From assembly GCF_002741035.1 (NCBI RefSeq), contig NZ_CP016808.1:1302001-1366000 (forward strand): DNA of 64,000 nt, in the 5' to 3' direction. The notes beneath the pieces are model-generated. The model saw nothing but the letters and a program-made list of their open reading frames with translations. It did not search any database and was not told the origin of the DNA. The position numbers and the translations under genes were made by a program. The DNA is from Paenibacillus sp. BIHB 4019 (GTDB lineage Bacteria > Bacillota > Bacilli > Paenibacillales > Paenibacillaceae). Of this stretch, positions 990 through 57,940 are shown piece after piece (the stretch's first letter is position 1; every line of letters starts with the position of its first letter).

Positions 990-2948
990 ATGAACGTACA
1001 TGATCATATCGTGATATGGAATTATACCTATTGCAAACTGCTGGATGTTCGCCGCATTGTTGTGAAAGCGGGAGAAGCCACTCGCCCCTATAAAGCGCCT
1101 GCCAGCCTGTTTATTATGTGTATTCGTGGAAGCGCACAGGTACAAGTCAACGGGGAATTGCATCATTTAAACCGTTTTAAGATTTTGCATATCGGTAAAG
1201 GAGCAGCCATTGATTTTCAGGCTAGTGAGGACGGCCTTGAATATTATAGTGTTTTTTATAAAGCGACGATTCCGCAGCCTGCGCCGCAGCCCATTATTCA
1301 GCTTGCTGAACGGCTGCGCCCTTTTCACACGCTATATGAATTTGCGCCTGCCCATCCTGTCGTTTTATACCGCTGCTTGACCGACATGTACAAGGAATGG
1401 AACAAGGCGGAGGCACTTGGACAGCTGCATGCCAAAAACCTGCTTTTCCAGTTCGTCCACGAACTTTTAAATCAATTGAAAGTACAGGGCACTTATTCAG
1501 AAAAGCGCGATTTAGCCGCGCAAATCATTGCTATTATTCAGAAGCAATATGCCGAGCCCATCACCCTTGAGTCTTTATCCGAAAGCCTGAATTACAGCGT
1601 CCCTCATTTATCCTCCTATTTTAAAAGCCGGACGGGTGTTAGCCCCATTGATTATTTGATCAAAGTCCGCATTGACAGGGCTGCTGCTCTGCTGCTTGAA
1701 ACCGATGCCACGTTAAGCGAAATAGCGGCTGGCGTCGGCTATCGCGACCCCTATTATTTAGGCAGGCTGTTTAAAAAATATAAAGGCGTCTCTCCCTCCC
1801 TATTCAGAGCGGAGCATTCTGCAAATAAACGGGTAGAAGATTGTCCTTCTACAATCATGAGATCCTCCATTGCCCCTCCAAAAACGCTCCGCTATACTAA
1901 TGTAGCTGATAACGATTATCAACGGAGCAAAGAGGGAGAGTCTATTATGTTTAGAGAATTAAAGCCGTCCATGGCGGCGGTATTACTACTCAGCTTTATG
2001 CTGCTTCTCAACGCTTGCGGAACACAAGCGTCTAGCAATAATGCTGCTGCTGGAGCAGCAAGCTCTACAGAACCGAGCAGTACGCCTCAAGCAACGGCTA
2101 GCCCCGTGCCTGAGCAAGAAGGAACCAAAATCGTATCGACCATTATGGGCGATGTTGAAGTTCCGCTGCATCCGAAACGCGTAGTGGCTGGAGAATATTT
2201 AGGAAGCCTGCTGGCACTCGGTGTGATTCCGGTTGGTACCTCCTCTCACCATCTTTCAAATCCTTATTTAAGCGATGCTTTAAAGGAGGTAGAGGATTTG
2301 GGAGACGGTAACGGCAGTCTAGAGAAAATTCTTTCGATAGAGCCAGATCTGATCATTATGGATGACATGTATACTGAAATGAATGATCAGCTAAGCAAAA
2401 TCGCACCCACTGTTATTATCCCTTATGCTTCGCTTAAATCGGTACATGAGGAAGTTTCCTATTTTGGCGAGCTGCTGGGCAAGGAGCAGGAAGCAACCGC
2501 ATGGCTTGCCGACTATGATAGCCGTATCGCAACAGCGAAACAAAAAGTGCTTGAGGTCATTCCGGCAGAAAGCACGTTCTCCGTCTTGGAATGGATCGGG
2601 AAAGACGTTTCGGCGGTCGGCGCCAACTATGGCAAAGGCGGACAGCCCATTTACAATGTATTTAGCTTTAAGCCTCCTGCTGAAGTAGCTGCTGAGATAG
2701 GCGATCCAGGCTGGGCAACCCTATCTAATGAGGTATTGCCTAAATATGCCGGGGATTATATCGTGCTCACGACCGACAGGCAGTCCATCGACGATCTCAA
2801 AGCAGACCCGATCTGGAGATCTCTTGACGCCGTCAAAAATAACCGGGTATTTATTTGGAGCAAAGAGCGTTCCTGGTACTGGGACCCGATTGCTATCCTG
2901 ACCCAAACGGAAGAGCTTGCTGATTGGCTTGTAAGTACGAAATCATAA
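990..2948 (+). CDS. AraC regulator fused to siderophore-binding lipoprotein (fusion A)
   Basis: 652 residues in one open frame. Residues 1-150 form a cupin-like AraC sensor region. Residues about 175-285 form a double helix-turn-helix AraC DNA-binding domain ending in a segment typical of the family (IAAGVGYRDPYYLGRLFKKY). A linker of about 35 residues follows, then a hydrophobic stretch with lipobox LLNAC (Cys343). The rest is a PF01497-type siderophore-binding domain (KRVVAGEYLGSLLALGVIPVG). Inside the linker, DNA at 1907-1921 is a Fur box, and AGAGGGAGAG is followed by an in-frame ATG at 1947 (Met320), which would start an ordinary 333-residue lipoprotein. The B. subtilis regulator Btr also joins AraC to a siderophore-binding domain, but it has no signal peptide. 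The product could be a membrane-anchored regulator, two separate products, or both. Confidence 0.85.
   Translation: MNVHDHIVIWNYTYCKLLDVRRIVVKAGEATRPYKAPASLFIMCIRGSAQVQVNGELHHLNRFKILHIGKGAAIDFQASEDGLEYYSVFYKATIPQPAPQPIIQLAERLRPFHTLYEFAPAHPVVLYRCLTDMYKEWNKAEALGQLHAKNLLFQFVHELLNQLKVQGTYSEKRDLAAQIIAIIQKQYAEPITLESLSESLNYSVPHLSSYFKSRTGVSPIDYLIKVRIDRAAALLLETDATLSEIAAGVGYRDPYYLGRLFKKYKGVSPSLFRAEHSANKRVEDCPSTIMRSSIAPPKTLRYTNVADNDYQRSKEGESIMFRELKPSMAAVLLLSFMLLLNACGTQASSNNAAAGAASSTEPSSTPQATASPVPEQEGTKIVSTIMGDVEVPLHPKRVVAGEYLGSLLALGVIPVGTSSHHLSNPYLSDALKEVEDLGDGNGSLEKILSIEPDLIIMDDMYTEMNDQLSKIAPTVIIPYASLKSVHEEVSYFGELLGKEQEATAWLADYDSRIATAKQKVLEVIPAESTFSVLEWIGKDVSAVGANYGKGGQPIYNVFSFKPPAEVAAEIGDPGWATLSNEVLPKYAGDYIVLTTDRQSIDDLKADPIWRSLDAVKNNRVFIWSKERSWYWDPIAILTQTEELADWLVSTKS
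1907..1921 (+). promoter_or_regulatory. Fur box inside fusion A, before the internal lipoprotein start
   Basis: TGATAACGATTATCA matches the Bacillus 7-1-7 Fur consensus with one change. It is read in frame as DNDYQ and lies 26 bases before the internal ATG at 1947. Confidence 0.75.
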
Positions 2949-2995
2949 TTTAATGGCGTTTAGAAAATAGGTAATGGGGTGAAATATTTGCTCCA

Positions 2996-3045
2996 TAAAA
3001 AAAACACAGCAACGGCGCGAAATGTGCCTTGCTGTGTTTTTTTAT
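2996..3045 (+). terminator. Bidirectional terminator between convergent genes
   Basis: A-rich AAAAAAAACACAGCAA pairs with TTGCTGTGTTTTTTT around a short loop. It serves fusion A on the plus strand and the small gene ending at 3047 on the minus strand. Confidence 0.9.
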
Positions 3046-3046
3046 T

Positions 3047-3244
3047 TTATGTGACAAGCTCCGAATGAACCATGGTAGAGCTACCGGGCTCCCAGTACCA
3101 ATTGCCATCAGTTGCTTTACTTACATCCTGCAACTCATAGCGCCGAGTAAATTCTTTCGTCGTCCCTTCACTATTTTTCACCGTAGAAACATAATATACT
3201 TTTGCTTTATTCGGCTCATATGAAACTATCGTGGCTTGCTCCAC
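3047..3244 (-). CDS. Small protein of unknown function (65 aa)
   Basis: Opens with GTG at 3244, with no strong ribosome binding site, and stops at 3047 just before a terminator. It lies in the same frame as, and 9 bases after, the stop of the RCC1 protein, beyond two adjacent stop codons (TAA TAG). The product is polar, with no signal peptide or membrane segment, and I do not recognise a family. It may be a small independent protein or the detached C-terminus of its upstream neighbour. Confidence 0.45.
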   Translation of the reverse strand: MEQATIVSYEPNKAKVYYVSTVKNSEGTTKEFTRRYELQDVSKATDGNWYWEPGSSTMVHSELVT

Positions 3245-3253
3245 ACTGAACTA

Positions 3254-5086
3254 TTATTGAAGCTTAATTTGCGTTAACTCACTGTAATTCAGATCATCCA
3301 TCCAACCTTTCTTATAGTTCTCGCCAAAAATAAAGTACGGACTATGCCCGACTCCCCATAACGTCCCATCTTGTTTTAAAAATAGGGTTTTGCTAGTATC
3401 CGCGAATACGTCTCTTACCGGAGACAAATCCGTAATTTTCGTTGGTTTCTCCACCGCCTCGCCAATCGAGAGCATACCAAGCTCTCCGGCGATATTTTCT
3501 CCCCAACCATATAAAGCTCCCTTATCATCAATTGCAAAAAAATGATATTTTCCAGCTACAGTTTTCACGATACGGCTTAAACCTTCAATCTGCTTTGGTG
3601 ACTTGGCAAAATAATAGCTGCTTCCAAAAATACTTTCTCGCAGCTCATCCCACCCCCACACCGTGCCATCTTTCTTAATAGCGAGTACGGCTGTATTGTT
3701 CATTTCAATGCTGGTAATATCGGAAAGCTCTTTAATATGAATAAGCTCGGAGCTGTCAGGATTCGTCTTCCACACCGTACCATCATTTTTCAATACAGCT
3801 GTAAAGGTAAATCCGATTTTAACCTCTTTCACATTGCTCCACGGCAACTTAACAGGGCTTGGGTGGATAATCTTATTGATATCGTATTCCTCTCCCAATT
3901 TCCCATTGAAGTTTGACCCCCAAGCATATACTTCTCCTAAATCATTTATTGCCATGACAGCCGAATTATGATTTTCTATAGCTGATATTTTCTCTAGCCC
4001 CTCCACTTGCTGGGGAATGCGGGTCACCTCATATTTTTTCAAGCCATTGCCCCAACCGCCTGCATTATTAAATCCCCACACCCAGACTGTTCCGTCATTT
4101 TTCAAAGCAATACCAAGGTCGCCATCCAGCTTGACCTGTTTAATATTTTCTAATATTTTCATAGGTTTCTCATAATATTCCCCCCATGTCCATAACTGCC
4201 CGCCTGCTGTTACAAGCGCAATTTCTCCATATATACTTGCCGTTTTAATTGAATCGGTTATGAAGGGCTCTGTATTGGACCAAATCCCCAGCTTTTTCGT
4301 GTGCGCTTCCTCTTGGAGAGGTAGAAGCTGTGCTTTCAGGTAGGGATCTTCATTAACTAAAGAGCTTTTAGCGTACCCTCGGCTCACCAGCTCTTGGTTA
4401 ACAATCGTCCCATCGTCCTTATATACCAAAGCCCACAGATTCTTATTACTATCCCGCCCACTTCGAAAATCTACCTTAACCTTTGTACCGATTGGCAGCA
4501 TAGCCTTTAAATATTCCGTTGCCTCCATACTATTTCGAATGGGAGAAAGCCCCGAAAGCCGGACTTGTTCGGTGACCAACTCCTGCTCCGTATTTATATA
4601 TTTTAATGCCACATACAGGCCATCAAAAACCTCAACAATCTCAGCATCTATCTTTGGAGCGGATTGTATTTGCAGCGTAAGATTCGTTTTATCCCACATC
4701 AGCTTGGCTCCAAAAGCCTCCGCCGCAATCCGTACAGGAAACATCGCTGATCCGTCTACCCATTCCCCTGGCAGCGTAAGCGATACAGGATCCTCGTTAA
4801 TAAAGGCCTGTTGTTCCCCCATCTGGTATGACAATATTTGATCAGCTTTGGAAGCGATAAATATTTTATAACCGTTGTACCAAACAAGCTCCGCCCCGAG
4901 CGCTTCAAAGATCATTTCCGCTGGTACCATTACACTTCCTTTTTGCAGAGCAGGAGCAGTTTCAGAGATAAGAGGAACTCCATCAAGCAATATCTTTATT
5001 TCTCGTGTATCTTTTGCACCGTAAGCTGCTGGAGCCAGCAAGCCTAAGCATAAAAATCCTATTACCAATACGACTATCTTCTTCAT
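3254..5086 (-). CDS. Secreted protein: stalk domain, nuclease-like domain, RCC1 repeats
   Basis: 610 residues. Residues 1-23 are a signal peptide ending near AYGA. Residues about 30-140 match the copper-amine-oxidase N-terminal (stalk) fold common in Paenibacillus exported proteins (VMVPAEMIFEALGAELVW, MFPVRIAAEAFGAKL). Residues about 150-275 resemble a staphylococcal-nuclease-like module (GTKVKVDF, LVSRGYAKS, KKLGIWS). Residues 280-605 hold RCC1/BNR-type beta-propeller repeats with recurrent 'KNDGTVW-WG' units. RCC1 propellers usually bind proteins or ligands, and the target here is unknown. I did not find a convincing full set of nuclease catalytic residues, so enzymatic activity is unproven. 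Confidence 0.85.
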   Translation of the reverse strand: MKKIVVLVIGFLCLGLLAPAAYGAKDTREIKILLDGVPLISETAPALQKGSVMVPAEMIFEALGAELVWYNGYKIFIASKADQILSYQMGEQQAFINEDPVSLTLPGEWVDGSAMFPVRIAAEAFGAKLMWDKTNLTLQIQSAPKIDAEIVEVFDGLYVALKYINTEQELVTEQVRLSGLSPIRNSMEATEYLKAMLPIGTKVKVDFRSGRDSNKNLWALVYKDDGTIVNQELVSRGYAKSSLVNEDPYLKAQLLPLQEEAHTKKLGIWSNTEPFITDSIKTASIYGEIALVTAGGQLWTWGEYYEKPMKILENIKQVKLDGDLGIALKNDGTVWVWGFNNAGGWGNGLKKYEVTRIPQQVEGLEKISAIENHNSAVMAINDLGEVYAWGSNFNGKLGEEYDINKIIHPSPVKLPWSNVKEVKIGFTFTAVLKNDGTVWKTNPDSSELIHIKELSDITSIEMNNTAVLAIKKDGTVWGWDELRESIFGSSYYFAKSPKQIEGLSRIVKTVAGKYHFFAIDDKGALYGWGENIAGELGMLSIGEAVEKPTKITDLSPVRDVFADTSKTLFLKQDGTLWGVGHSPYFIFGENYKKGWMDDLNYSELTQIKLQ

Positions 5087-5169
5087 ATACTTCTCTCATC
5101 CCCTATTATCCGCTTCATATAATATTGTGATTATCGGCATAATGTAACAGCTGATATAGATACAGCTTA

Positions 5170-5208
5170 TAAAAAAAACAGCCTTCGGCAGAATGCCGAG
5201 GCTGTTTT
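5170..5208 (-). terminator. Terminator of fusion B
   Basis: On the minus strand AACAGCCTCGGC pairs with GCCGAAGGCTGTT and is followed by a run of T residues. It lies about 45 bases after the stop at 5254. Confidence 0.9.
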
Positions 5209-5253
5209 GCATTTGAGATAAAATCTATCAACGATTTTCCTAAAGCAAGGTGC

Positions 5254-7200
5254 TTATTTCTGCAGCTGGGCTACCTTCTCAATCATCTCATCAACCGCTT
5301 GCTCCGCCAAATAAGGGCCGAAGTTCCATTTATCGCGGGTTACGTTGATAATCCGATTATTTTTGATCGCAGGGATGGATTGGTATAGCGGCTCCTGGAA
5401 CAGCTTATTCATGCCGACCAGTTCCTCGTCGGTCATTTGCGTGAAGAAATAGTCGGCTGGGCGATCCGCTAGCGATTCCATGGAAAGTGCGGCTCCGCCA
5501 TCCGAATATTGCTTGAACTGCTCCGGCATTTGGTAGCCGAAATCCTCATAAATTAATTTGCCAAGCGTACCGCCTTCGCCTCCAAGAAATAGCTCTCCTT
5601 GGTAAAGAATAAAGGTGATAGCCGTTTCGCCTGGCGTCACTTTTACTTCAAGCTGATCGCGGACGCTTTGCAGCTTCGCTTCAAATTTCGTAATCCACGC
5701 TTCCGCCTCTTGCTTGCGGTTCATAATATCGCCCATGTCCCGCAGCGTATTGATGATATCTGGATCGCCGCCCCATGAGACAGCTACCGTTGGCGCGATC
5801 TTTTCAAACTGGGTGTACGCAGCTGCGTCATGGTATTCCGGCAAAATAATCAAATCCGGCTCGAGCGCAGAAACGGCCTCGACATTGCCAAGCCCTTCAC
5901 CAATGCTAGCAACGCCTGCCAGCTCTTCTGGATAATGATCAAGCACCGCCTGATCAACCCCAACCGGTTGTATGCCAAGCGGCAGCAAATAACCGCCATA
6001 AGTGATAACAACCACTTTGCTAGGGCTCGATGGAATTTCCACCTCACGTCCAAGTGCATCCTTATACATTCTTGTCGTTGCTGCTGGTGATTCCGCTGCT
6101 GTATCAGCCGTAGCAGTTGCAGCTGGCTGAGCATTGCTTCCTTGTGCGCTCTGCTGCGGCTCTGCAGCTGTACCGCCACATGCAGCGAGCAGCAGCGACA
6201 AGCTAAATAATAATGTTACGGCAAAAGATGGCTTAAAACCTAACCTCATTTCATTCACTCTCCAAGCGCTATATTGATAATCATTCTCGCTGTTACCAAT
6301 ATAGCTTTGTCCAGCTTGAGGGGCAATGTGCGATTCGGGCATCATTTTTGGACGAATTGAACCTATTGAGCCCAAATTAAGCTTTTTAAACTGTGTAGGA
6401 GTTACACCTGTCAGCTTCTTAAACAGGCGGCTGAAATAATAAATATCGGTATAGCCCACCTTTTCAACAAGGCTGCGAATCGGCGTATCCGTCTCCGTGA
6501 GCAGATATTTGGCTCGATTGATCCGAGTTTGCATCAAATATTCCATAGGGCTGCAGCCGAATTTGCGCTTAAACACCCTTGCTAGATAATGCGTGCTGTA
6601 ATGGAACTTCCCAGCCATCGTTTCCATCGTTACCGTTTTATGAAAATACTCGTGAATGTACTCAGCGATTTGCTCTGGTAAATCTGGTACTGCTGCTTCA
6701 GCTTTCACCATTTGCAGTTGGCGAAACTGTTCCACCACGAATTGGTAGAATACTCCCGTTACCTGCAGCCGATCCAGCTCCTCGCTGCTTGCCCAAAGCT
6801 GAGACATCTGCTCCAGCAACGACAGCAGCGACATAGCATGCATCACCTCAAAGGCATAGCGCCTCCCGAACACATCCTGCTGCTCTAGATCACCATGCCT
6901 TACTTGATTGCCTATCATGGCCAGCGGTTTATACAAAATTAAATAATAGTCAAACGGCTCATCCCCACACCATATGCTCAGGTTGGCGCCTTTTCCACTA
7001 TGCAGCAAATAGCCATTATCGCAAGGAGCTTCTAGCTCCTCCATTACCAGCCTCGCATTGCCTTGATTGGCATATACAAAAGCGTTTGCAGGAAGCCGAT
7101 AGGCTAACCGCGTCTCTCCCGGCTTCAACGTAAGATGGCGAATATCCAGCACTTGAACAGGCCTTTGGTTCCATAATTGGATAATCTCCTGCCATTCCAT
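5254..7200 (-). CDS. AraC regulator fused to siderophore-binding lipoprotein (fusion B)
   Basis: 648 residues from the ATG at 7200. This start is preferred over an upstream in-frame ATG because GAGGTG lies just before it and the conserved Trp then falls at residue 10, as in the paralogues. Order: AraC sensor region (1-150), AraC helix-turn-helix (about 185-290, VGYTDIYYFSRLFKK), linker containing ENDYQY, hydrophobic stretch with lipobox LLAAC (Cys341), then a siderophore-binding domain (KVVVITYGGYLLPLGIQPVG). GGAGAG and an in-frame ATG at 6249 (residue 318) could start a separate 331-residue lipoprotein. A Fur box lies at the junction. The upstream region carries a different palindrome (7238-7256) rather than a Fur box. 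Confidence 0.85.
   Translation of the reverse strand: MEWQEIIQLWNQRPVQVLDIRHLTLKPGETRLAYRLPANAFVYANQGNARLVMEELEAPCDNGYLLHSGKGANLSIWCGDEPFDYYLILYKPLAMIGNQVRHGDLEQQDVFGRRYAFEVMHAMSLLSLLEQMSQLWASSEELDRLQVTGVFYQFVVEQFRQLQMVKAEAAVPDLPEQIAEYIHEYFHKTVTMETMAGKFHYSTHYLARVFKRKFGCSPMEYLMQTRINRAKYLLTETDTPIRSLVEKVGYTDIYYFSRLFKKLTGVTPTQFKKLNLGSIGSIRPKMMPESHIAPQAGQSYIGNSENDYQYSAWRVNEMRLGFKPSFAVTLLFSLSLLLAACGGTAAEPQQSAQGSNAQPAATATADTAAESPAATTRMYKDALGREVEIPSSPSKVVVITYGGYLLPLGIQPVGVDQAVLDHYPEELAGVASIGEGLGNVEAVSALEPDLIILPEYHDAAAYTQFEKIAPTVAVSWGGDPDIINTLRDMGDIMNRKQEAEAWITKFEAKLQSVRDQLEVKVTPGETAITFILYQGELFLGGEGGTLGKLIYEDFGYQMPEQFKQYSDGGAALSMESLADRPADYFFTQMTDEELVGMNKLFQEPLYQSIPAIKNNRIINVTRDKWNFGPYLAEQAVDEMIEKVAQLQK
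6275..6289 (-). promoter_or_regulatory. Fur box inside fusion B
   Basis: On the plus strand this reads TGATAATCATTCTCG, a 7-1-7 Fur-like site with two changes in one half. It lies 25 bases before the internal ATG at 6249. Confidence 0.65.
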
Positions 7201-7237
7201 AAAAACACCTCGAAACGAAAATAAATGCTGAAACTGC

Positions 7238-7256
7238 ATCCTTTATTATAAAGGAT
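7238..7256 (-). promoter_or_regulatory. Perfect inverted repeat upstream of fusion B
   Basis: ATCCTTTAT-T-ATAAAGGAT is a perfect 9-1-9 palindrome centred about 47 bases before the start at 7200. It is not a Fur box and may be an operator for the encoded AraC protein or another regulator. Confidence 0.45.
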
Positions 7257-7262
7257 AACATC

Positions 7263-7527
7263 CAAGCAGCAAGTACGTCAGCCCTATTGCTTTTCTTTTT
7301 GCCGATTGGGTTTTCAATAACTTAAATATGGTTTCAATGCTCCATTTTCATTAAGGATTTAGCAAGCCGATCCATTGTGAAATCCTCGATTTGTAAAGAA
7401 ATTATAAATATAAAACGGATACATTTTTTAGGCAGGCGAAAAGCAAATAATTATCTGTTTCATGTACATTATTTAGTTAATTATCCCGATAAATATACTA
7501 CATACATAAAAACTTGGGATAGAGACA
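7263..7527. other. Intergenic stretch without a supported gene
   Basis: AT-rich DNA between fusion B and the repeat element. A short frame (7377-7580) runs through here into the repeat but lacks a good ribosome binding site and family features, so no gene is called. Confidence 0.4.
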
Positions 7528-7626
7528 AGCGTAAACGGCTAAAGCTGCCCTCTGGCAGCAAGGCTACTGTTTCGCGCTGAAATATAAGAATGAATAAGTA
7601 TGAAGCTTATACATTCTTATATTTAA
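7528..7626 (+). repeat. Dispersed two-hairpin repeat, copy 1
   Basis: Hairpin 1 has an outer stem AAACGG (7533-7538)/CTGTTT (7567-7572) and inner stem GCTGCC/GGCAGC with loop CTCT. Hairpin 2 has a perfect 13-bp stem (7580-7592 with 7612-7624). A related copy lies at 57841-57940 with compensating stem changes, and a partial copy lies at 36612-36676. This copy ends 8 bases before the ribosome binding site of the next gene. Confidence 0.75.
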
Positions 7627-7649
7627 AAAAACCAAAGGAGACCATACGT

Positions 7650-8222
7650 ATGTTTAAGCGAGTGGAGAATGAACTGGAGCTAGCGATGTTTAATGGTGTT
7701 TGGACAACTGTCTGGAGGGAAAAAGGATTTGATCTTGAGTTTTCCGCTCAAGCACTTGAGCGACTTATGATTGTCACGATGGAGGGACATTATGTAGGCA
7801 CGGCTGAGATTAAGCCGTATAGTGCTGCAAGCACGATTAACGAAGCCGGAATCTTTCAGGAGCACCCGGAGCTGATATGCGCACAGGGAAAAATCGCGGA
7901 AATTGACAAAATAGCCTTATTAAAACCGTATCGTGGGCAACAATACATATCTGAGCTGCTCTCCTCCCTTGTCTATACGGCGGAGGAACGGCAGATCAAA
8001 TATTATGTTTCGTTGCTGGAGCCTGTATTTTTAAGAGCATTGCGGGTTACTTTCAAGGTGCCGCTAGAGAGGCTTGGAGAGAAGGTGTTTTATAAAGGAG
8101 ATTATGTGGTTCCAATGGTATTAAATGTGGAGCAGATTTATTCGAATAAACAAAAATATGCTTGGCTTTCCTATTCGCAGCAGGCCGCTTTCTCTGCACA
8201 TGCTAGCAACGCAAGCGTCTAG
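7650..8222 (+). CDS. GNAT-like acyltransferase, autoinducer-synthase-like
   Basis: 190 residues from the ATG at 7650, set by AAAGGAG at 7634-7640. An in-frame ATG at 7590 lies inside the hairpin repeat and is unlikely. The order '[13 protein letters not shown]... [21 protein letters not shown]' recalls the N-acyl amino acid/acyl-homoserine lactone synthase branch of the GNAT fold, where a central strand is followed by an acyl-CoA-binding helix. No signal peptide or membrane segment was seen. The gene lies 47 bases before a chemoreceptor gene on the same strand, so the two may be cotranscribed. The substrate is unknown and the family call rests on pattern only. Confidence 0.6.
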
Positions 8223-8269
8223 AACTGAATCGGCTTAGCTGTACAACTTATAAAAAGGTGGATTTACGT

Positions 8270-9751
8270 ATGAAGAGAGTACTAACGGAGCTTGATAAGC
8301 GGAACCGATTGTTAATCAAAATTCTTTGGGGCGTGCTCGTGCTGGGAGTGGCCACAGATATTGTCATCGGTCTGGATAAAAATATGATTTTTTTTCTTGC
8401 CTCCGTTGGAGGTGTAACGAGTGCTATCGTCACTTTTATGACTTATAGAGGCATCCTTACAGACTATATTAAGTATATGGTTCCGTGCATTTTAACGCTA
8501 GTTGTCTCCTTTCTTATCATTTCCGATCCGAATCCAGTCGTAAGCACTTATCTTATTGTTTATGTTAATCTCGCAATCATTACCTTGTACGCCGATTATC
8601 GGCCTATTGTTTTCACAGGCATACTGGGAGCAGCGCTGAGCACCTATTTATTTATGAATCCTGTGCTTCAGCCTAAGCTATTCCCCGGAGAATCACTCGC
8701 CTATTTGTATTTGTATTTAATGTTTGCAACAGGGGCTCTGGCATTCTCGGCCAGCTTCACCCAGCGGCTGCAGAAGCAGGTCACAGACAAGCAGCGCGAG
8801 GCAGTAGCCTCCAAGGATATGGCGGAGGCGCTGCTTACCAAGCTGGAATCCTCGATTCTAGTGCTTACCGAATTCAGCAGCAGCCAGCAAGCGACGGTTC
8901 GTTCAACCGGAGAAATCTCCAAGGAGGTGACGATGACCTTCTCGGCCATGTCGGCTGCCATTGAGACCCAGACGGGAACCATTATGAATATTAGCGATAC
9001 GACGCAGATCATAGACACAGCCGTCAAGCGCTTGCTTGATGGAACGGAAATGCTGCGACAATATTCAGCGGACAATGCTGCGTTGACCGTGGAAAATCGG
9101 GATCAAATGGCTGCATTATCAGAGGAGATTGAGCGTGTTAGAGCGATCATCCTGCATACAGTCGACATGATGAACCAGCTTAATGAGCAAAATGATCGGG
9201 TAAGCTCGATTGTCGGAACGATCGGCGATATTGCAGAGCAAACGAATCTGCTGGCGCTTAATGCCGCCATTGAAGCAGCACGGGCAGGCGAGCATGGCAA
9301 AGGCTTTGCAGTCGTATCCGACGAGGTACGAAAGCTTGCTGATAATTCAAGAGCTGCGACACAAGAAATTACGACGATTTTATCCGGCATTCGTTCGCAA
9401 ATCAGCGCCGTTCACCTGCAGGTAACAAGCGGACAAGCAGCAGCGACAACCAGCAGGGATGTTTCACGCCAGGTACAGCAGCTTATTGATCGCATCAGCG
9501 AAAATATGGAGCTCGTGAGGCAGCACTCTGATACAGTAGGCAGTTCTGCGGGTGATCTGCATGAGCGTTATGCAAGCATGGCCGATGAGATGGTCAATAT
9601 TGCGGCTACGACTGAACAGAACATGGCTTCCGTTGAAGAGGTACATGCTAGCATGGAGACGCAGGATGTGAAGATCCATGCGATGGTGCAGGAGTACGGC
9701 CAGCTAGATCAGTTGTTGTCAGAGCTTAAGGCGATGGTAGCAAAGCAGTAG
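8270..9751 (+). CDS. Six-helix membrane chemoreceptor (methyl-accepting chemotaxis protein)
   Basis: 493 residues from the ATG at 8270, after AAAAAGGTGG. An earlier GTG overlaps that ribosome binding site. About six hydrophobic segments fill residues 12-165 with little extracellular sequence. Residues about 200-490 are the MCP signalling coiled coil with the conserved hairpin tip ([20 protein letters not shown], then [14 protein letters not shown]). No periplasmic Cache domain and no clear HAMP domain are visible, so it probably senses a membrane or intracellular cue. It signals through CheA/CheW, which are not in this window. Confidence 0.9.
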
Positions 9752-9787
9752 GCTGATATGAGAAGTAACCGTAATAGTGTAGGCAAA

Positions 9788-9822
9788 GCCGATGATTCGG
9801 CTTCTGCCCACTTTACCCAACG
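9788..9822. terminator. Weak hairpin between convergent genes
   Basis: GGCAAAGCCGA/TCGGCTTCTGCC can fold between the chemoreceptor and the reductase gene, but it has no T run, so termination is uncertain. Confidence 0.35.
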
Positions 9823-9837
9823 GAGCACTCTCCCTTC

Positions 9838-10881
9838 TTACGCGTCTTCTTCCCGAACACCAAGCGCCAGATTTTTTTCTCTGAACTTGCTATTATGCGA
9901 GGATACATAAGCAACCTCGTCGGCTTTTGGCTCCATATACAGCTTGGCGCTGTTCACGGCAAAGGCCGCATCGGTAAACGCTCCGGCAATTAAATAAAGC
10001 TTTGATTCGTAATCTACAAAATCTCCGGCAGCAAAAACACCCGGTATATTCGTAGCCAGCTTGCTGCTTACCTTTACTCTACGAACGCCAATATCCAATC
10101 CCCATTCACGAATAGCTCCACAATCACTCTTCAAGCCATGATTTACAATTACGGCATCTACGTCCAACGTTTCTGTCTCTCCGCTTTCCACCTGACTGAT
10201 AGTCACCTGATGGATTGCTTTACCATCCTTGCTATGCAGCTGAGTAACCGCATATGGCGTTTTAACATTAACCATGGACTGTCTCATCCGCACAACATTT
10301 TTCTCATGTCCGCCAAATTGCTCGCGGCGGTGTATAATCGTAACGCTGGCCGCCAACTGCTCCAGCTCATTTGCCCAGTCTACCGCCGAATCCCCGCCGC
10401 CGGATATCAGAACATGCTTGCCACGAAATGGTTCAAGCTCCTGCACCGTGTAATGGAGATTGCTCACCTCATAACGATCTGCTCCTTCAATATCGAGCTT
10501 CGACATTTTCAGAATGCCGTAGCCGATCGTGAGAATGACCGTTTTCGTCCAATGCGTCTCTCCCGATTCCGCTGTAAGGAGAAAGGTTCCGTCCTCCAAT
10601 CGATCCAGACCGACAATCTGCTGTCCAAATACAAGGGTCGGATCGAAAGTTCGCGCTTGCTGTGCCAGCTGCGCAATCAATTGCCTGCATAGGATCGGCG
10701 TCACTCCGCCAACATCCCAAATCATTTTTTCCGGATAAATCAGCATCGTTCCACCAAGCTCTTCCTTGGCTTCAATCAGCTTTGTCTTCATATCGCGCAT
10801 ACCGCTATAGAAGGCCGCGTACATGCCAGCCGGGCCCCCGCCGATTATCGTTACATCGTATAACTCTGTGGATTGTGTCAC
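9838..10881 (-). CDS. Ferredoxin-NADP reductase, thioredoxin-reductase type (YumC/YcgT-like)
   Basis: 347 residues with a GTG start at 10881, 8 bases after GGAGG. The FAD site [12 protein letters not shown] (residues 14-25), the NADPH site [15 protein letters not shown] (around residue 160) and the C-terminal FAD contact [16 protein letters not shown] identify the family. The redox CxxC of thioredoxin reductase is absent, as expected for this FNR group. The gene starts 15 bases after fusion C, so the pair probably forms an operon in which the reductase helps supply electrons for iron release from siderophores. Fur-controlled YcgT in B. subtilis is a precedent. Confidence 0.88.
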
Positions 10882-10896
10882 TCTGCTTCCTCCAAT

Positions 10897-12888
10897 CTAT
10901 GACTTCGATTTCTCGATCAGCCAATTTGCCAGCTCTTCAACCTGAGACAGCATTGCGATCGGATCTTGGAACCATGATTGATCCTCTGTCCACAGAAATA
11001 CACGATCATTTTTTATTGCATCCAATTGGCTCCATAACGGATTAGACTTATATTCATCCATTGCTTTCGGACTGGTCAGGACAACATAATCACCAGCGAA
11101 ATCGCCCAGCTTTTCCAGCGAAATTGGGTAATATTTCTCCTTCATAATTTCTTTAGTTAGTCCTACTGGCGGATTGAGCCCCAATGCCTCATAGATTGCA
11201 CGTCCGCCGCGGCCAGAAATAATACCGAAGACGTAAATCGATTTATCCTGGTCTTCAAGCACGCTCACCGTCGCATCCTCAGGAAGCGCCTGTTTCACCT
11301 TTGCTTTTGCGGCAGCTATACGAGTATCGTAATCGTCCAGCCAAGCGGTTGCTTTTTCCTGAACGCCCAGCAGCTCGCCGAAATAGTTTATTTCCTCATG
11401 AACATTTTTGAATTTATTATAGGGAACGCTCACTGTCGGTGCTATTTTACTGAACAATTCATATTTCTCTTGATCACTTGTCAATGTGATAATCAGATCG
11501 GGCTCCATTTCCATGACCTTTTCAATGGAATCCCCCACATTTTCAACGCCATCGATCTTATCCTTTAAATACGGGTTTTGCATAAGCCACTCGGATGAAC
11601 CGATCGGATTCGCACCTAAAGCGACGAGAGATCCCAGATAGTCTATTGCTACGATTCGCTTAGGATTTACTGGTATCGTAACATCCCCAAACACGGTGGA
11701 TACCGTTTTAGTTGTTTCGGTTGGTGCTGAGCTCGCTTGATTTGTGCTGCCTTGCTGGCCATCAGCGGCTCCTCCTTGAGCAGCATCTGCTGGCTGTACG
11801 TTCGCCGGTTGGCTTCCCCCGTTTGCTGTCGCCGTCGTCGTATTCGTGCCTCCTGTGCCGCAAGCGCTTAGCAGCAGCATGAGACAAAGCAATAAAGTTG
11901 CTGTCATAGATGTTTTCGTACCTCTGTACAACGTAAAATCCCCCTCTAGTTTATATTGATAATGATTTTCATACTCATCACCAATATATCGTTGAGCGAC
12001 ACGTTTCACAATGGAGGATGTTAACGATTTTTTTGCAGAATATTGTATCTTGCCGCCGGCAAGCTTGCGTTTTTTGTACTGGCCGGGAGCTACGCCCACA
12101 TGCTTTTTAAACATCCGATTGAAATAAAACATATCGGGATAGCCCACAGAAGCGGCAACCTCCTGCAAGGTAGCATCCGACGTCAACAGCAGTTCCTGCG
12201 CTTTGTCCATTCTTAGCATGATGAGAAAGTTGATTGGACTGTTTCCCGTCTGCTCCTTAAACTTTCTGGATATATATTGCGGACTATAATTTAGCAGCTG
12301 CGCCAGCGATTCAATCGTAATATTGTGCTGATAATTGTCCGTCATATAACGAATGGCTTGCGCCGATAAATCTGGACTGTCCGTCTCCAAGCCCTGCCGT
12401 TGTATTTGCCACAGCAATTCATACACAAATTGATAGAACAGCGATTTGGCATGCAGCCTTTCCAGCGTATTCGGCCTACTCCATTCACGATGCATCCGCT
12501 TTACCTTGTCCAGCAATTCAACCGGATATTGCGGTGTAAAATCATATTGCTGTTGAAACGGATTTTCCCGTTCCATAAGAAGCTGCAGCTCGCGCCGGAA
12601 AGGTGGCACTAATGACGCTTTATACAAAATTAAATAATATTCAAATACATCCTCTGCTTCGATCTCCAGCCGGGCTCCTTTGCCGCCATGAAGCACATGA
12701 AACCGCCGGACCATGCTAAAATGGCCATCCAATGAAACCTTTGCACTGCCTCGCGCCGTCAACAAGAACGCACTCGCGGGCAAGTCATAAGCCGGCAGCT
12801 TCTCATTAAATTCCATCCTGATATGACGAACATCCATCATTCGAACTAACGCGTGGTTCCATAACAAGATATGATCTTCTATACTCAT
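10897..12888 (-). CDS. AraC regulator fused to siderophore-binding lipoprotein (fusion C)
   Basis: 663 residues. AraC sensor region (1-150), helix-turn-helix (about 180-285, VGYPDMFYFNRMFKKHVG), linker with conserved RYIG...ENHYQY, hydrophobic segment with lipobox LLSAC (Cys343), Ala/Gln/Thr-rich spacer, then a siderophore-binding domain (KRIVAIDYLGSLVALGANPIG). GAGGGGG and an in-frame TTG at 11931 (residue 320) could start a 344-residue lipoprotein. Fur boxes lie both before the gene (12975-12989) and at the internal junction (11957-11971). It is followed by the ferredoxin-NADP reductase gene. It is most similar to fusions A and D. Confidence 0.87.
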   Translation of the reverse strand: MSIEDHILLWNHALVRMMDVRHIRMEFNEKLPAYDLPASAFLLTARGSAKVSLDGHFSMVRRFHVLHGGKGARLEIEAEDVFEYYLILYKASLVPPFRRELQLLMERENPFQQQYDFTPQYPVELLDKVKRMHREWSRPNTLERLHAKSLFYQFVYELLWQIQRQGLETDSPDLSAQAIRYMTDNYQHNITIESLAQLLNYSPQYISRKFKEQTGNSPINFLIMLRMDKAQELLLTSDATLQEVAASVGYPDMFYFNRMFKKHVGVAPGQYKKRKLAGGKIQYSAKKSLTSSIVKRVAQRYIGDEYENHYQYKLEGDFTLYRGTKTSMTATLLLCLMLLLSACGTGGTNTTTATANGGSQPANVQPADAAQGGAADGQQGSTNQASSAPTETTKTVSTVFGDVTIPVNPKRIVAIDYLGSLVALGANPIGSSEWLMQNPYLKDKIDGVENVGDSIEKVMEMEPDLIITLTSDQEKYELFSKIAPTVSVPYNKFKNVHEEINYFGELLGVQEKATAWLDDYDTRIAAAKAKVKQALPEDATVSVLEDQDKSIYVFGIISGRGGRAIYEALGLNPPVGLTKEIMKEKYYPISLEKLGDFAGDYVVLTSPKAMDEYKSNPLWSQLDAIKNDRVFLWTEDQSWFQDPIAMLSQVEELANWLIEKSKS
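11957..11971 (-). promoter_or_regulatory. Fur box inside fusion C
   Basis: Plus-strand TGATAATGATTTTCA is a 7-1-7 site with one change. It lies 25 bases before the internal TTG at 11931. Confidence 0.7.
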
Positions 12889-12974: not shown

Positions 12975-12989
12975 TGATAATGATTCTCT
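12975..12989 (-). promoter_or_regulatory. Fur box upstream of fusion C
   Basis: Plus-strand TGATAATGATTCTCT lies about 90 bases before the start at 12888. It suggests iron-repressed transcription of the fusion and the downstream reductase. Confidence 0.7.
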
Positions 12990-14434: not shown

Positions 14435-14547
14435 AAAAATATTGAAAAACGGCAACCGCTGCAATTGCAGGACTTTAGAACGATTTGTCGAAAATAATAT
14501 TTCAATCGAATACTACACTCATCGCAAAAAGGACGTGGTTCAGCATC

Positions 14548-17500
14548 ATGAAAGATATATCCCGTTTACAAAGCAAGCTTGCGCATCAGCTTTACAAACG
14601 AGTTCAGCTAAGCCTGCTCATTTGCTTTATGCTGTTCAATTCTTTTGCCGGCATTGCTCTAGCAGCATCCCCAGATGCTCCTAACGCTGTGGGCGGCGAA
14701 GAAAGCATTACGGTCAGCCATTTCACCTCTGGCGCTACACTAAAGCTTTATTTGGTCAATGGCACTTTAAAAGCTACGGAGACAAACGTTATTACTACTA
14801 CCTATACCTTCAACGAAGTCGAACCAAACCCCATCTATTATTATGTGACCCAAACCGTTGGCGGGGAGGAGAGCATCAATTCCAGCTTCATCAATTCCAG
14901 CCTTAGAACACCTGATGCCAGTGCTGGCATTGGCTATGTCGACATTGCCAATGTCCATCCGAACGCAGCCATCACGCTATACACTTCAAGCGGCAGCCCC
15001 GTTTCCAGCTCCCCCATTGATCAAGGCGGCGGCGTTTTCCGTTTTGACGGACTGACGGCAAGAAGCGATTATTATGCCGTGCAGAGCGTTAATGGCGTGA
15101 TAAGCAATGCTAGCAGCACCGTGACCGTACAGCCTTACATTCCTGCTGCTCCAACAGCAGCCAGCAGCGAAGAAAGCATAACGGCAAGCGGCTTCGATTC
15201 GGGTGCGACCTTAAAGCTTTATTTGACTAATGGCTCCTTGCAGGCTACGGCAACGAGTGTTACTGGTTCTGCCTATAGCTTTAGCGATGTTGAGCCAAAC
15301 TCCCTCTACTATTATGTGACTCAAACCGTCGGCGGGGAGGAAAGCATCAACTCCGGCTTCATTAATCCGAGTTTAAGGACACCTGTTGCCAGCGCCGGCA
15401 TCGGCTATGTGGACATCAGCAATGTTCATCCGAACGCAACGCTCACCCTGTATACCTCAGGCGGCAGCCCTGTTTCCAGTTCGCCTATTGATCAGGGCGG
15501 CGGCATTTTCCGCTTTGACGGACTAATGGCAAGAAGCGATTATTATGCCGTGCAGAGCGTTAACGGCGTGACTAGCGCTCTCACCAGCATCGTAACCGTG
15601 CAGCCTGACATTCCCGCTGCTCCAGCAGCAGTCGGCGGCGAGGAAAGCATTACGGCGAGCAGCTTCGAGCCGGGTGCGACCTTAAAGCTTTATTTGACCA
15701 ACGGCTCCTTGCAGGCTGCAGCAACGAGCGTCACTGCTTCTACCTATACCTTTAGCAATGTAGAGCCCAATTCCCTCTCCTATTATGTGACCCAAACGGT
15801 CGGAGCAGAGGAAAGCATCAATTCCAGCTTCATTAATTCAAGCCTAAGAACACCTATTGCCAGCGCTGGTATCGGCTATGTGGACATCAGCAATGTGTAC
15901 CCTAACGCAACCGTTACGCTGTATACCTCAAGCGGCAGCCCCGTTTCCAGTTCGCCTATGGATCAGGGCGGCGGCATTTTCCGCTTTGACGGACTAATGG
16001 CAAGAAGCGATTATTATGCCGTGCAGAGCGTTAATGGCGTGAGCAGCGCTCTCACCAGCATCGTAACCGTGCAGCCTAGTATTTCTGCAGCTCCAACAGC
16101 AGCCAGCGGCGAAGAAAGCATCACCGTAAGCGGCTTCGAGCCGGGCGCAACCTTAAAGCTATATTTGACCAATGGCTCCTTGCAAGCTACGGCAACGCAT
16201 GTTGTTAGTCCTTCCTATACGTTTAACGATGTTGAGCCAAATTCACTCTATTATTACGTAACCCAAACGGTAGGAGCAGAGGAAAGTGTCAATTCCAGCT
16301 TTATCAATGCGAGCCTGAGAACAACTGCCGCCATTGCCGGGCTCAGCTATGTAGACATTAGCAATGTATATCCGGGAGCAACGGTTACGCTATTTACGAT
16401 TGACGGCAGCCCTGTCTCCAATATCCCTATTGATCAAGGGAATGGAATTTACCGATTTGTTGCGCTAGATCCAGGTCGTGAATATTATGCGATACAAAGT
16501 ATTAACGGCGTGCCAAGCGAGGGCTCTACGATCGTCTGGGTTCCTGCTGTCGCTTCTGCACCAACGCAAGTAACGGCTGCCGCCGGCAACGGTCGGGCTG
16601 TAGTCAGCTTTACCGCGCCGGCCAATGATGGCGGCAACACCATTACGAGCTATGAAGTGACCGCCTCTCCGGGCAATATTATCGCAATCGGTACGACAAG
16701 CCCGATTACAGTTACAGGTCTCAGCAATGGCACGAGCTATACGTTTACCGTAAAGGCAATTAATGCGGTTGGGAGCAGCTTGGCGTCGGACGCATCGGAT
16801 GCGGTTACGCCAAGATCGTCGTCAAACAGCAGCAATACAACGACTCCAACTAGCACAGATGCCGATTTGCTGCTTAACGGCAAAACGGTTGATATCGGTA
16901 CGGTTATCACCACCAAGCTAAACGGACAGACCGTAACGACCGTTGCACTCGATAAAAATAAGCTGGAGAACCAGCTTCAGCAGCAAGGCACGCAAATGGC
17001 CAGCCTTTCAGTGAACCGTACATCTGATATTATGATTTTCGAAGGCGATGGCGAGCTGATCAAGAGCTTGTCCAACAAAGGAGTAACGCTGAATATTCAG
17101 ACGCCGCAAGCTGCTTACTCTTTGCCAGCCGAGCAAATTAACGTCGATGCGCTGTCTGCCCAGCTCGGCAGCCCGCTAGCTTTGAAGGATATTAAAATAA
17201 TCATTAAAATAGGCGCGCCATCGGCTGCTCAAAGAAGTGCAGCGGAAAGTGCGGCAGCCAAACAAGGCTTTACGTTAGCCGTGCCTCCGTTTGAGTTTAT
17301 CGTGCAGGGCACGTATTTGGGAAAATCGGTTAATGTCACAAAATTTAATGCTTATGTAGAGCGGATGCTCACTCTTCCTGATGGAGCAGACATTAGCAAA
17401 ATTACAACTGGAATCGTCATCGATCCAGACGGCACAATCCGCCACGTCCCAACGATGATTATAGAGAAGGACGGCAAGGCTTATGCAAAAATCAACAGCT

Positions 17501-34557: not shown

Positions 34558-34573
34558 TCGCAATACCCTCCTA

Positions 34574-34588
34574 TGATAACAATTCTCA
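34574..34588 (-). promoter_or_regulatory. Fur box before the binding protein-esterase pair
   Basis: TGATAACAATTCTCA, 7-1-7 with two changes, starts 17 bases before the ATG at 34557. Confidence 0.7.
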
Positions 34589-34598
34589 CTAAGAAGAA

Positions 34599-53866: not shown

Positions 53867-53881
53867 TGATAACAGTTATCA
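53867..53881 (+). promoter_or_regulatory. Fur box upstream of fusion D
   Basis: TGATAACAGTTATCA is a perfect 7-1-7 palindrome about 37-50 bases before the expected start of fusion D. Confidence 0.75.
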
Positions 53882-53917: not shown

Positions 53918-54046
53918 TTGTAGGATGACGACTATTTATTACTCTGGCATCATGCGCATATCCGGCTGAACGATATTCGCCATCAGCATATAGGAGTTGG
54001 GGGCTATTTAAATGCCTACCGGCTTCCATCACCCGCTTTTATATAT
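53918..54046 (+). other. N-terminal coding sequence of fusion D ahead of its first usable ATG
   Basis: In the frame of the gene below, bases 53924-54046 encode DDDYLLLWHHAHIRLNDIRH and onward, matching the first 43 residues of fusions A-C. Aligning the conserved Trp at residue 10 puts the start at TTG 53918, but codon 2 is TAG (53921-53923). AAAGGAGG lies at 53898-53905. The start is therefore damaged, or the sequence contains an error. Confidence 0.7.
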
Positions 54047-55900
54047 ATGGTTCGCGGTACGGCACGTTTTAGGCTTGACGGAAAGGAGCTTCAGGCGGAC
54101 CGTTTCCATATTCTGCACAGCGGCAAGGGCAGCCTCTTGGACATAGATGGAATTAAGGAACCATTAGAATATTATCTCATTCTTTATAAAGCTTCGCTGC
54201 CGCTCCTGACGGCTCCATTTATTCGAAAGCTTGCGGATAATAAAAGTCCTTTTCATAGACAATATGAATTCGCTCCCCATGATCCGGTTGTGCTGCTTCA
54301 TTTGGCGAAGACGATGCAGCAGCGGTGGCATGAAACTCATTCCCTACAGCGTATTCATGTCAAAGCCTTGTTTTATCAGTTCATCTACGAGGTGGAACAG
54401 CAATTGCAAATGCAAGGCAAACAGGCCATTCAGCCTGACCTTGTGGAGCAGGTCATCCGGCATATTCGTGAATGCTATAGCACGCCGATTACACTCGCAT
54501 CCATCGCCCGATTGTTGAATTATAGCGCCCCTTATGTGTCCAAGCAGTTTAAAAATAAGACTGGCTACAGCTTAATTGATTTTCTAATTCTAACTCGTGT
54601 GGATAAGGCGAAGGAGCTGCTGCTTCATTCAGAAGCTTCGCTCCAAGAAATTTCCAGCAGCGTGGGATACCCGGATTTATCTTATTTCATACGTATTTTC
54701 AAAAAGACGACCGGTGTAACACCCGGAAGCTTCAAAGCACAGGCTGGCAGCAGCCGGCAAGAAGCAGATCGTCCTACGCTTATGCTTAGATTGTCTGATG
54801 CAGCACGGGGGTTTCGACGTTATATTGATATGGAACATGATAATGATTATCAATATGTCGAAGAAGGGGAATTCACGATGTACAAAGGAACCAAAACCTC
54901 CATGGGAGCAACCGTGCTGTTATGTCTAGCCTTAATGCTCAGCGCCTGCTCCAGCGGCAGTGGAGCTGCTAATTCCATAGCTTCCAGTACCAGCCCTGCT
55001 GCCTCCACCCAGACGCAGAACAATAGTCCGGCTGCAAGCCAAACGAATGCTGAACCTGCTCCAAGCGTATATACAGACAGTCAGGGGCATGAGGTGCAGC
55101 TTCCCGAAAGTCCAAAGCGCGTTGTACTCCAAGGCAATTCAATCGGCGATCTGCTGGCGCTAGGCATTCAGCCCATCGGCGTTGATCGCCGGTTTATTGA
55201 TGAATCCGTCTATTTGGACAAAGAACAGACCAAGGCGCAGGATATTGGTTTTCCAACCAATTTTGAAGCTCTTGTAGACTTGGCTCCCGATCTGACGATG
55301 CTCGGTTATGTTTTAGATAAACAGTACGAAGAAGTATCAAAAATATCGCCGACCGTCGTTTTTGATCAAAGCCTGCCATTAGCCGAGCGCCTCCCCATCA
55401 TTGGAGAAATCGTCGGCAAACAAGCCGAGGCCAAGCAGCTGCTTGCCGATTATGATGCTAAAGCTGAGAACATGTGGAGTGAGCTGCATAAGGCAGGAAA
55501 GCTTACTGAAGGCGAAACAGCGGTCGTGTTAATTTATTATTGGAGCAAAGATATGTATTTGATGAAAACCGGCGGTCTTGCCTCTTTATTGTATCAGCAA
55601 TCAGGCTACCAAATGTCTGAGCGGGTAAAGGAGCTTGAACCGGCCGCTGGCTCTCCCTATATTGAGGTTTCAAAAGAGCTCATGCACGACATGCTCATCG
55701 GGGACCGCCTATTCATCTTGTATCCACACAATGAAGATGCGGAAGCCTCCTTTGCTGAACTGCTGGAAACATCCCTTTGGAAATCGCTCCCTGCCGTCAA
55801 GAGCGGAAAAGTCACTTTTGTCGAGACAAAATGGAATTACGAGGACATGCTGACTAGTGATATGCTGCTGGACGAGCTTCCCAAGCTGTTGGCTCAATAA
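54047..55900 (+). CDS. AraC regulator fused to siderophore-binding lipoprotein (fusion D)
   Basis: 617 residues from the first in-frame ATG (660 if read from TTG 53918 through a TAG at codon 2). AraC sensor region, helix-turn-helix (IARLLNYSAPYVSKQFKNKTG; VGYPDLSYFIRIFKKTTG), linker RYIDMEHDNDYQYVEEG, hydrophobic segment and lipobox MLSAC, then a siderophore-binding domain (KRVVLQGNSIGDLLALGIQPIG; APDLTMLGYVLDKQ). GAAGGGGA and an in-frame ATG at 54878 could start a free 340-residue lipoprotein. A perfect Fur box is translated within the linker. Even if the regulator half is dead, the lipoprotein half could be made from the inner start. Confidence 0.85.
   Translation: MVRGTARFRLDGKELQADRFHILHSGKGSLLDIDGIKEPLEYYLILYKASLPLLTAPFIRKLADNKSPFHRQYEFAPHDPVVLLHLAKTMQQRWHETHSLQRIHVKALFYQFIYEVEQQLQMQGKQAIQPDLVEQVIRHIRECYSTPITLASIARLLNYSAPYVSKQFKNKTGYSLIDFLILTRVDKAKELLLHSEASLQEISSSVGYPDLSYFIRIFKKTTGVTPGSFKAQAGSSRQEADRPTLMLRLSDAARGFRRYIDMEHDNDYQYVEEGEFTMYKGTKTSMGATVLLCLALMLSACSSGSGAANSIASSTSPAASTQTQNNSPAASQTNAEPAPSVYTDSQGHEVQLPESPKRVVLQGNSIGDLLALGIQPIGVDRRFIDESVYLDKEQTKAQDIGFPTNFEALVDLAPDLTMLGYVLDKQYEEVSKISPTVVFDQSLPLAERLPIIGEIVGKQAEAKQLLADYDAKAENMWSELHKAGKLTEGETAVVLIYYWSKDMYLMKTGGLASLLYQQSGYQMSERVKELEPAAGSPYIEVSKELMHDMLIGDRLFILYPHNEDAEASFAELLETSLWKSLPAVKSGKVTFVETKWNYEDMLTSDMLLDELPKLLAQ
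54838..54852 (+). promoter_or_regulatory. Perfect Fur box inside fusion D
   Basis: TGATAATGATTATCA, exact 7-1-7 consensus, read in frame as part of HDNDYQ, 26 bases before the internal ATG at 54878. Confidence 0.85.
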
Positions 55901-57795: not shown

Positions 57796-57840
57796 TTTTC
57801 TGTACCCTCCTGAGCGGTCGATATATTTCATTTCTCATCA

Positions 57841-57940
57841 AGCGTAAACGCCTGTCGCTGTCCTCTGGCGGCAAAGCTAGCGTTTCGCGTTGAAATATAG
57901 GGAAGGATGGAAAAATCATATCCTTGCCTATATTTTTAAA
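57841..57940 (+). repeat. Dispersed two-hairpin repeat, copy 2
   Basis: Same order and spacing as the element at 7528: outer stem AAACGC (57846-57851)/GCGTTT (57880-57885), inner GCTGTC/GGCGGC with loop CTCT, then stem 57893-57908 with 57920-57935. Outer stem bases differ from copy 1 yet still pair. Confidence 0.75.

Follow-up and report, generated by a model that had tools for sequence, protein, structure and literature searches.

Fused AraC regulator and siderophore-receptor genes of Paenibacillus sp. BIHB 4019 probably carry an inner Fur-type promoter within a single reading frame

The Btr (YbbB) protein of Bacillus subtilis brings about siderophore-dependent activation of an uptake gene, and we take it to have no export signal and a cytoplasmic receptor domain. 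AraC-family operators, such as I1-I2 of AraC itself, consist of direct half-sites adjoining the -35 box, and receptors of the FhuD/YxeB type are lipoproteins encoded by separate genes. One report describes ybbB/btr as an AraC regulator gene with a FeuA-like domain, upstream of feuA (PMC3896406), and another describes a Fur peak from chromatin immunoprecipitation inside ppsB, with promoters initiating internally (PMC6212828). Here we describe four genes, A to D, in a 64,000-nucleotide stretch of the Paenibacillus sp. BIHB 4019 genome (contig NZ_CP016808.1, positions 1,302,001 to 1,366,000; hereafter the window), each of which joins an AraC regulator in frame to a siderophore-binding lipoprotein of the PF01497 type. 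They share with Btr the order of AraC and PF01497 domains and the iron-uptake setting, and differ from it in having a long linker, a lipobox and an inner promoter; of its activating function they have only a candidate operator. The likeness to FhuD/YxeB-type lipoproteins is confined to the receptor half, which here is joined in frame to the regulator. No description of the fusion or of its inner promoter was found in the open-access literature, subscription papers falling mostly outside that search. We suggest that the single reading frame of each locus is served by two promoters and yields two products, of which one is a long regulator-receptor protein and the other a short lipoprotein; the sequence comparisons below make this reading likely.

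The four fused frames are as follows.
990..2948, plus strand: fusion A, 652 amino acids; AraC sensor, helix-turn-helix (HTH) domain, linker, lipobox and PF01497 receptor
5254..7200, minus strand: fusion B, same architecture; start at 7200 preferred over the listed 7239
10897..12888, minus strand: fusion C, 663 amino acids; same architecture
54047..55900, plus strand: fusion D, same architecture; listed open reading frame (ORF) start at 54047

All four read through the linker without a stop, and in all four Pfam finds HTH_18, HTH_AraC and Peripla_BP_2. The two-HTH DNA-binding domain PF12833 is matched at an E-value of 1e-18 or better, which places A-D in the AraC family, and the PF01497 receptor domain scores 59.8-95.1 bits against a Pfam cut-off of 27.5. 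Each protein has a lipoprotein signal peptide with its lipobox Cys, as befits a siderophore-binding lipoprotein. The one-frame architecture that the initial annotation had proposed for A-D is thus borne out by open frames and Pfam domains alike. In both A and C, residue 343 is the lipobox Cys, which in the listed ORFs of B and D is residue 354 and residue 301, respectively; counted from 7200 in B (a better start than 7239, which is only 3 nt from a TATAAT) and from the aligned start in D, it becomes 341 and 344, in agreement with the positions first given.

Between the HTH and the lipobox, the linker appears to hold a complete inner control region, composed of an AraC-type repeat, a promoter, a Fur box, a Shine-Dalgarno sequence and a start codon, in that order.
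1839..1869, plus strand: A, direct-repeat operator; half-sites 1839-1848 and 1861-1869, 22 bp apart
1870..1898, plus strand: A, inner promoter P2, TTGCCC-17-TATACT
1907..1921, plus strand: A, Fur box TGATAACGATTATCA, 13/14
1929..1949, plus strand: A, GA-rich Shine-Dalgarno sequence and inner start ATG (1947-1949), 23 codons before the Cys codon 2016-2018
6327..6357, minus strand: B, direct-repeat operator; half-sites 6348-6357 and 6327-6335
6298..6326, minus strand: B, inner promoter, TTGCCC-17-TATATT
6275..6289, minus strand: B, Fur box CGAGAATGATTATCA, 12/14
6247..6249, minus strand: B, inner start ATG, 23 codons before the Cys codon 6178-6180
12012..12042, minus strand: C, direct-repeat operator; half-sites 12033-12042 and 12012-12020
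11983..12011, minus strand: C, inner promoter, TTGTGA-17-TATATT
11957..11971, minus strand: C, Fur box TGAAAATCATTATCA, 13/14
11929..11931, minus strand: C, inner start TTG after AGAGGGGGAT, 23 codons before the Cys codon 11860-11862
54767..54797, plus strand: D, direct-repeat operator; half-sites 54767-54776 and 54789-54797
54798..54826, plus strand: D, inner promoter, ATGCAG-17-TATATT
54838..54852, plus strand: D, Fur box TGATAATGATTATCA, 14/14
54878..54880, plus strand: D, inner start ATG, 23 codons before the Cys codon 54947-54949

These elements recur across a set of 87 fused loci. The set leaves out L116, where the lipobox is visible and was missed by the pattern, and L118, where it is absent; L062, which starts at a contig end, was put in by hand. 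Scoring used the Fur 7-1-7 and sigma-A consensus letters. Sought within 55 codons of the lipobox Cys, a Fur box of at least 11/14 was found in 86 of the 87 loci, the best box scoring 14/14 in 38 loci, 13 in 25, 12 in 13, 11 in 10 and 10 in 1; with 12-14/14, A-D are near consensus. The first 60 loci averaged 13.0, compared to 11.66 in synonymous codon shuffles (highest shuffle mean 11.98), and a score of 11 or more occurred in 3/595 other windows of the same frames. Unlike the ppsB case, the Fur site stands here at a fixed place and heads a complete in-frame gene. In L009 and L014 the Fur boxes (TGAAAATCATTTTCA) deviate from the consensus symmetrically in both arms, with the encoded Y changed to F, which speaks for dyad symmetry of DNA and not for the protein.

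A promoter of the form TTGnnn-17-TATAnT lies 5' of the Fur box, with a spacing of 17 in 84/87 loci and the -35 in a single reading phase in 83/87. Its mean score over 61 loci was 9.05 vs 7.09 in synonymous shuffles (highest shuffle mean 7.60), the finder giving a bonus of 0.5 for spacing 17. On the 3' side of the Fur box, Shine-Dalgarno-like runs averaged 4.2 bases vs 2.9 in shuffles of the same 61 loci, with a finder score of 0 in four of them, and are followed by a start codon, for which the commonest distance to the Cys is 23 codons. Read in frame, the -35 gives S-I-V/A/G, the -10 gives RYIG/RYID, and GATAATCATTATCA, the core of the Fur box, gives the protein motif D/E-N-H/D-Y-Q ('DNHYQY'). 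The initial annotation had taken RYIG/RYID and N-D/H-YQY as an argument that the linker is translated; this is not supported, as the two motifs are the -10 hexamer and the Fur box in frame. We also reject the idea that the linker motifs are mainly protein features, since synonymous shuffles lose the elements and synonymous change collapses over them. Because the linker would comprise a complete inner promoter, ribosome site and start, a free siderophore-binding lipoprotein is very probably made separately from the regulator.

Supporting this is the distribution of synonymous change. In 20 orthologue pairs, the change per conserved codon was 0.264 in the AraC half and 0.292 in the receptor; in the stretch that begins 25 codons ahead of the start of the Fur box and ends 19 codons past it, 68/708 codons had changed synonymously, and inside the Fur box 1/92. 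Among 11 close pairs, the proportion of synonymous differences (pS) was 0.134-0.187 in linker segments vs 0.273 and 0.278 in AraC and receptor, and the ratio of nonsynonymous to synonymous change (dN/dS) was 0.43, 0.28 and 0.22 in the linker segments, 0.14 in AraC and 0.10 in the receptor. The third-position excess was 2.66 in AraC, 4.28 in the receptor and 1.33 in the linker before the elements. Constraint on the linker thus acts mainly at the DNA level, exactly over the inner elements. As for the fusion itself, 20 of 21 loci of this genome have no stop before the lipobox. Lacking a stop codon to end it, the AraC half would be made only by read-through of the linker, unless message or protein is cut; presumably, then, it is made as a fusion. 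Translation of the fusion, as first proposed, is accordingly supported on better grounds than the linker motifs, namely purifying selection on the AraC half (its dN/dS of 0.14) and the absence of a stop before the lipobox.

A structural model of C, built from 72 sequences, is consistent with these observations. Its mean predicted local distance difference test (pLDDT) score is 81.7, with confident AraC and receptor domains, and its predicted template modelling (pTM) score of 0.46 makes it uninformative on the arrangement of the halves. A helix at 326-341 occupies the position of the signal peptide and disorder is predicted at 278-328 and 344-389, as would be expected of a linker constrained as DNA. 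The lipobox Cys is invariant in all 72 aligned proteins. The receptor half of C matches 3hxp (E 7e-54; fold TM score 0.90 on the target), and on sequence and model it resembles ferric-hydroxamate binding proteins.

The direct repeat has the form expected of an AraC-type operator. With loci aligned on the -35, gATnnTCCA occurs at -31 and again at -9, a distance of exactly 22 bp, and the repeat touches the -35 box of the inner promoter. This is similar to AraC I1-I2, where direct half-sites about two helical turns apart also touch the -35; unlike I1-I2, the operator lies here within the regulator's own coding frame. Identity between 9-mer half-sites was 0.649 at 22 bp and 0.16-0.32 at 19 other spacings (83 loci), and 5.75/9 vs 3.09/9 in synonymous shuffles of 61 distinct operators. 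The distal half-site was most like the proximal one of its own locus rather than those of other loci (0/5000 shuffles; this held also for the 61 distinct operators), and the operator beat the best of 499 background windows in 76/83 loci. Genome-wide, matches with up to one mismatch numbered seven, all in linkers of the fused family; with up to two mismatches there were 42, vs 3 for the reversed pattern. Thirty of the 42 were checked, and a Fur box of at least 11/14 within 31-40 nt was found in 11/11 family loci and 0/19 others, on which ground we reject a wide operator regulon. No repeat was found at the outer promoter (the best score upstream was 10.8, the median in linkers 26.9). Of 14 receptor genes without a fusion, only L023, L027 and L028 have the repeat clearly: in L023 an AraC gene is directly upstream of the receptor, and Btr-like genes adjoin L027 and L028; no repeat scoring above 3.8 was found at the window's receptor and Btr-like genes.

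Comparison of 29 diverged loci suggests which protein reads the repeat. Operator similarity correlated with similarity of the HTH (rho 0.43), compared to 0.19 for the receptor and 0.08 for the sensor, and the partial correlation with the HTH given the receptor was 0.42, with 0/2000 permutations as high. Eight of the 15 top covarying HTH columns fall in or directly before the two recognition helices, which we place at 203-214 and 253-264 in the model of C from their presumed positions in AraC proteins. Before or at the start of the first helix, N-Y-S goes with GTCC and D/E-C-S with ATCC or TGCC; the covarying residues of the second are V-Y-Y-F/A-H-T-L. Since these tests keep shared descent, they support self-recognition and do not prove it; it may be said that the gene's own AraC domain probably activates the inner promoter.

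Further to the inner elements, two of the four genes carry a Fur-like box at the outer promoter.
12975..12989, minus strand: C, outer-promoter Fur-like box AGAGAATCATTATCA, 12/14
53867..53881, plus strand: D, outer-promoter Fur-like box TGATAACAGTTATCA, 12/14
A Fur-like box of at least 12/14 was found upstream of the AraC start in 28/60 loci vs 4/300 background windows, C and D being among the 28 and A and B outside them.

From these elements we infer that the cell makes the long form, that the linker is bound by Fur and by the AraC domain of the same gene, that the ligand is a ferri-siderophore, and by what route the signal would cross the membrane. The outer promoter, often with a Fur box, would give the long protein. 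This would have the AraC sensor and DNA-binding domain in the cytoplasm, then a disordered linker and a lipoprotein signal peptide, and would end with the siderophore-binding domain outside the cell. The inner sigma-A-type promoter, with the Fur box at the expected transcription start, would give the siderophore-binding lipoprotein alone. Under iron limitation, Fur would leave the inner promoter, as well as the outer promoter of many loci, and the long protein would be inserted with AraC inside and the receptor outside. A siderophore could then be sensed by the receptor outside, or by the AraC sensor inside after uptake, upon which the AraC domain would bind the repeat within its own gene and drive mass production of free receptor. 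It may be, although we advance this tentatively and rate it as somewhat less likely than not, that the whole forms a self-contained one-gene feedback, in which a membrane-anchored sensor reads the siderophore outside with its C-terminal half and with its N-terminal half switches on its own inner promoter, from which the C-terminal half is made again as free receptor. Some 20 such circuits would then operate in a single genome, insulated through co-evolution of their half-sites with the recognition helices, and the cell could raise only the receptor for the siderophore encountered.

The family is larger than first stated. A search with C as query found at least 20 fused loci, C included, in the 7.25-Mb genome, and the protein database holds 307 relatives at E<=1e-40; all but one of the best 120 of these are 628-692 amino acids long, and their genera include Paenibacillus, Brevibacillus, Cohnella, Lysinibacillus, Sporosarcina, Gottschalkia and others. 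Counting the genome itself, a strong match was present in at least 10 of 40 relative genomes and at least 32 of 299 sampled Bacilli genomes; 15 of 24 other genomes of the genus had no match at that threshold. These counts are lower bounds, as 150 of 279 candidates were scored in the genome itself, 30 in each relative genome and four in each of the Bacilli sample. Among class-level loci, 27/29 had an open fused frame with an automatically detected lipobox, and a contig scan of named relatives returned one locus, in Paenibacillus algorifonticola (95%). The recurrence of the architecture, as noted in the initial annotation, is supported. The same genome has at least 13 shorter Btr-type AraC-PF01497 frames whose junction has no lipobox, as well as separate receptor lipoproteins. 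Its strong FecCD permease genes, scoring 250 bits or more, number 22, as against at least 20 fused receptors plus the separate ones, and by position a FecCD permease gene lies within 2 kb of only 2/20 fused loci, so that most receptors would have to share permeases; many of them appear to be orphans without a permease of their own.

Plain orthology with Btr was considered and rejected, though the arrangement would work in part as Btr does. NF049932 (Btr) is the best NCBIfam match of A-D, with 91.3 bits for A, 109.8 for B, 94.4 for C and 87.2 for D, far under the curated cut-off of 900, and A-D have the lipobox; with signal peptide and Cys they also depart from the cytoplasmic receptor domain that we assume for Btr. 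None of the 13 Btr-like frames of this genome has a Fur box of at least 11/14 at the junction, and in the Btr-like gene of the window itself residue 288 closes the HTH and residue 294 opens the receptor.

Could the frame be the remnant of two neighbouring genes whose stop was lost, the AraC regulator bearing a harmless tail and the fusion having no function? The inner elements alone would suffice for two genes, and one locus of the genome, L023 (contig 2387335-2389092), is in fact split, with a TAA between the AraC and receptor halves that sits inside the operator spacer and with every inner element in place; it possibly represents a state before or after fusion. Breaks also occur elsewhere: of 20 relatives of the AraC half only, 12 short ones were read, and six (P0121, P0122, P0125, P0126, P0127 and P0129) end between HTH and lipobox, P0127 with an apparent Fur box in another frame, the remaining six passing the lipobox and breaking later. 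Breaks between the halves, named at the outset as what would count against the fusion, thus exist, but they are rare. Those 20 compare to 307 for the full-length query at the same E-value, and on this ground the fused state predominates, with the proviso that the queries differ in length and sensitivity. Frames are open even in very diverged paralogues, and with elements fixed and spacers shuffled a linker would be open by chance at a mean of 0.24 per locus, a product of 1e-11 over 17 loci that are not independent. We therefore regard a functionless fusion as unlikely. At the other extreme, a single uncut protein, a membrane-held regulator reading siderophore outside with a linker conserved as protein, would agree with the open frame in 20/21 loci and with the confident domains, signal-peptide helix and disordered linker of the model. 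It leaves the conserved synonymous sites and the loss of Fur box, promoter, ribosome site and repeat in shuffles without explanation, as it does the complete lipoprotein start inside the frame, and we consider it very improbable. A sequencing or annotation artefact is scarcely conceivable, the architecture being repeated in independent genomes and database records.

It is possible, if somewhat doubtful, that the long form is a precursor, from which signal peptidase II frees the receptor, leaving AraC anchored by a remnant that a RasP/Eep-type site-2 protease might release; this can coexist with the inner promoter. The invariant lipobox Cys would fit, and one report describes site-2 proteases acting on signal peptides after signal peptidase II, and on FecR in iron sensing (PMC10202637). 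However, the short lipoprotein already accounts for the conservation of the Cys. Several observations also weigh against the two-product reading itself. The linker's own coding signal is weak (1.33, p 0.03, the least constrained part, obtained without a non-coding control), and the link between operator and HTH could partly reflect joint inheritance of neighbouring DNA, as the permutations ignore descent. For seven of the 83 operators the best background window scores as high or higher, the outer Fur-like box is found in only 28/60 loci, and the Fur box of L064 reaches only 10/14. L073 (genome G040) does not show the elements and was left out of later counts; L118 (G167) is a fused relative whose signal-peptide region has no lipobox Cys, and could be a natural uncut, tethered form. 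Fusion D has a poor -35 (ATGCAG), and its aligned N-terminus has no canonical start codon: an in-frame TAG (53921-53923) lies immediately 5' of the conserved N-terminal block, and the listed ORF begins 41 codons on. The inner unit of D looks intact, while the TAG may shorten or abolish the long form.

The window also holds other genes. A thioredoxin-reductase-like flavoprotein gene (9838-10881), possibly a siderophore or ferredoxin reductase, begins 15 nt past fusion C, its ribosome site overlapping the end of C. Fusion D is adjoined by a receptor lipoprotein and a Btr-like gene (552 amino acids, without linker) at 56776-59672. A cassette at 32711-35774 resembles one for bacillibactin use. It encodes a putative esterase and a PF01497 receptor and includes a Btr-like gene, the open frame of which starts just 5' of the HTH and has no sensor domain. 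Two predicted surface-type proteins (151-819 and 14485-18102) have strikingly similar C-terminal segments, from RHVPTK/RHVPTM to the end, which suggests a recent duplication.

If the two-product reading is right, hundreds of proteins annotated as mere AraC regulators would be two-product genes with regulatory sites in their linkers, and conserved linker residues in such families would have to be viewed with caution, as they can be promoter DNA. The roughly 20 natural regulator-operator pairs per genome would offer material for working out AraC specificity. For the bacterium, it would be a compact arrangement by which a foreign siderophore, once detected, leads to production of its receptor.

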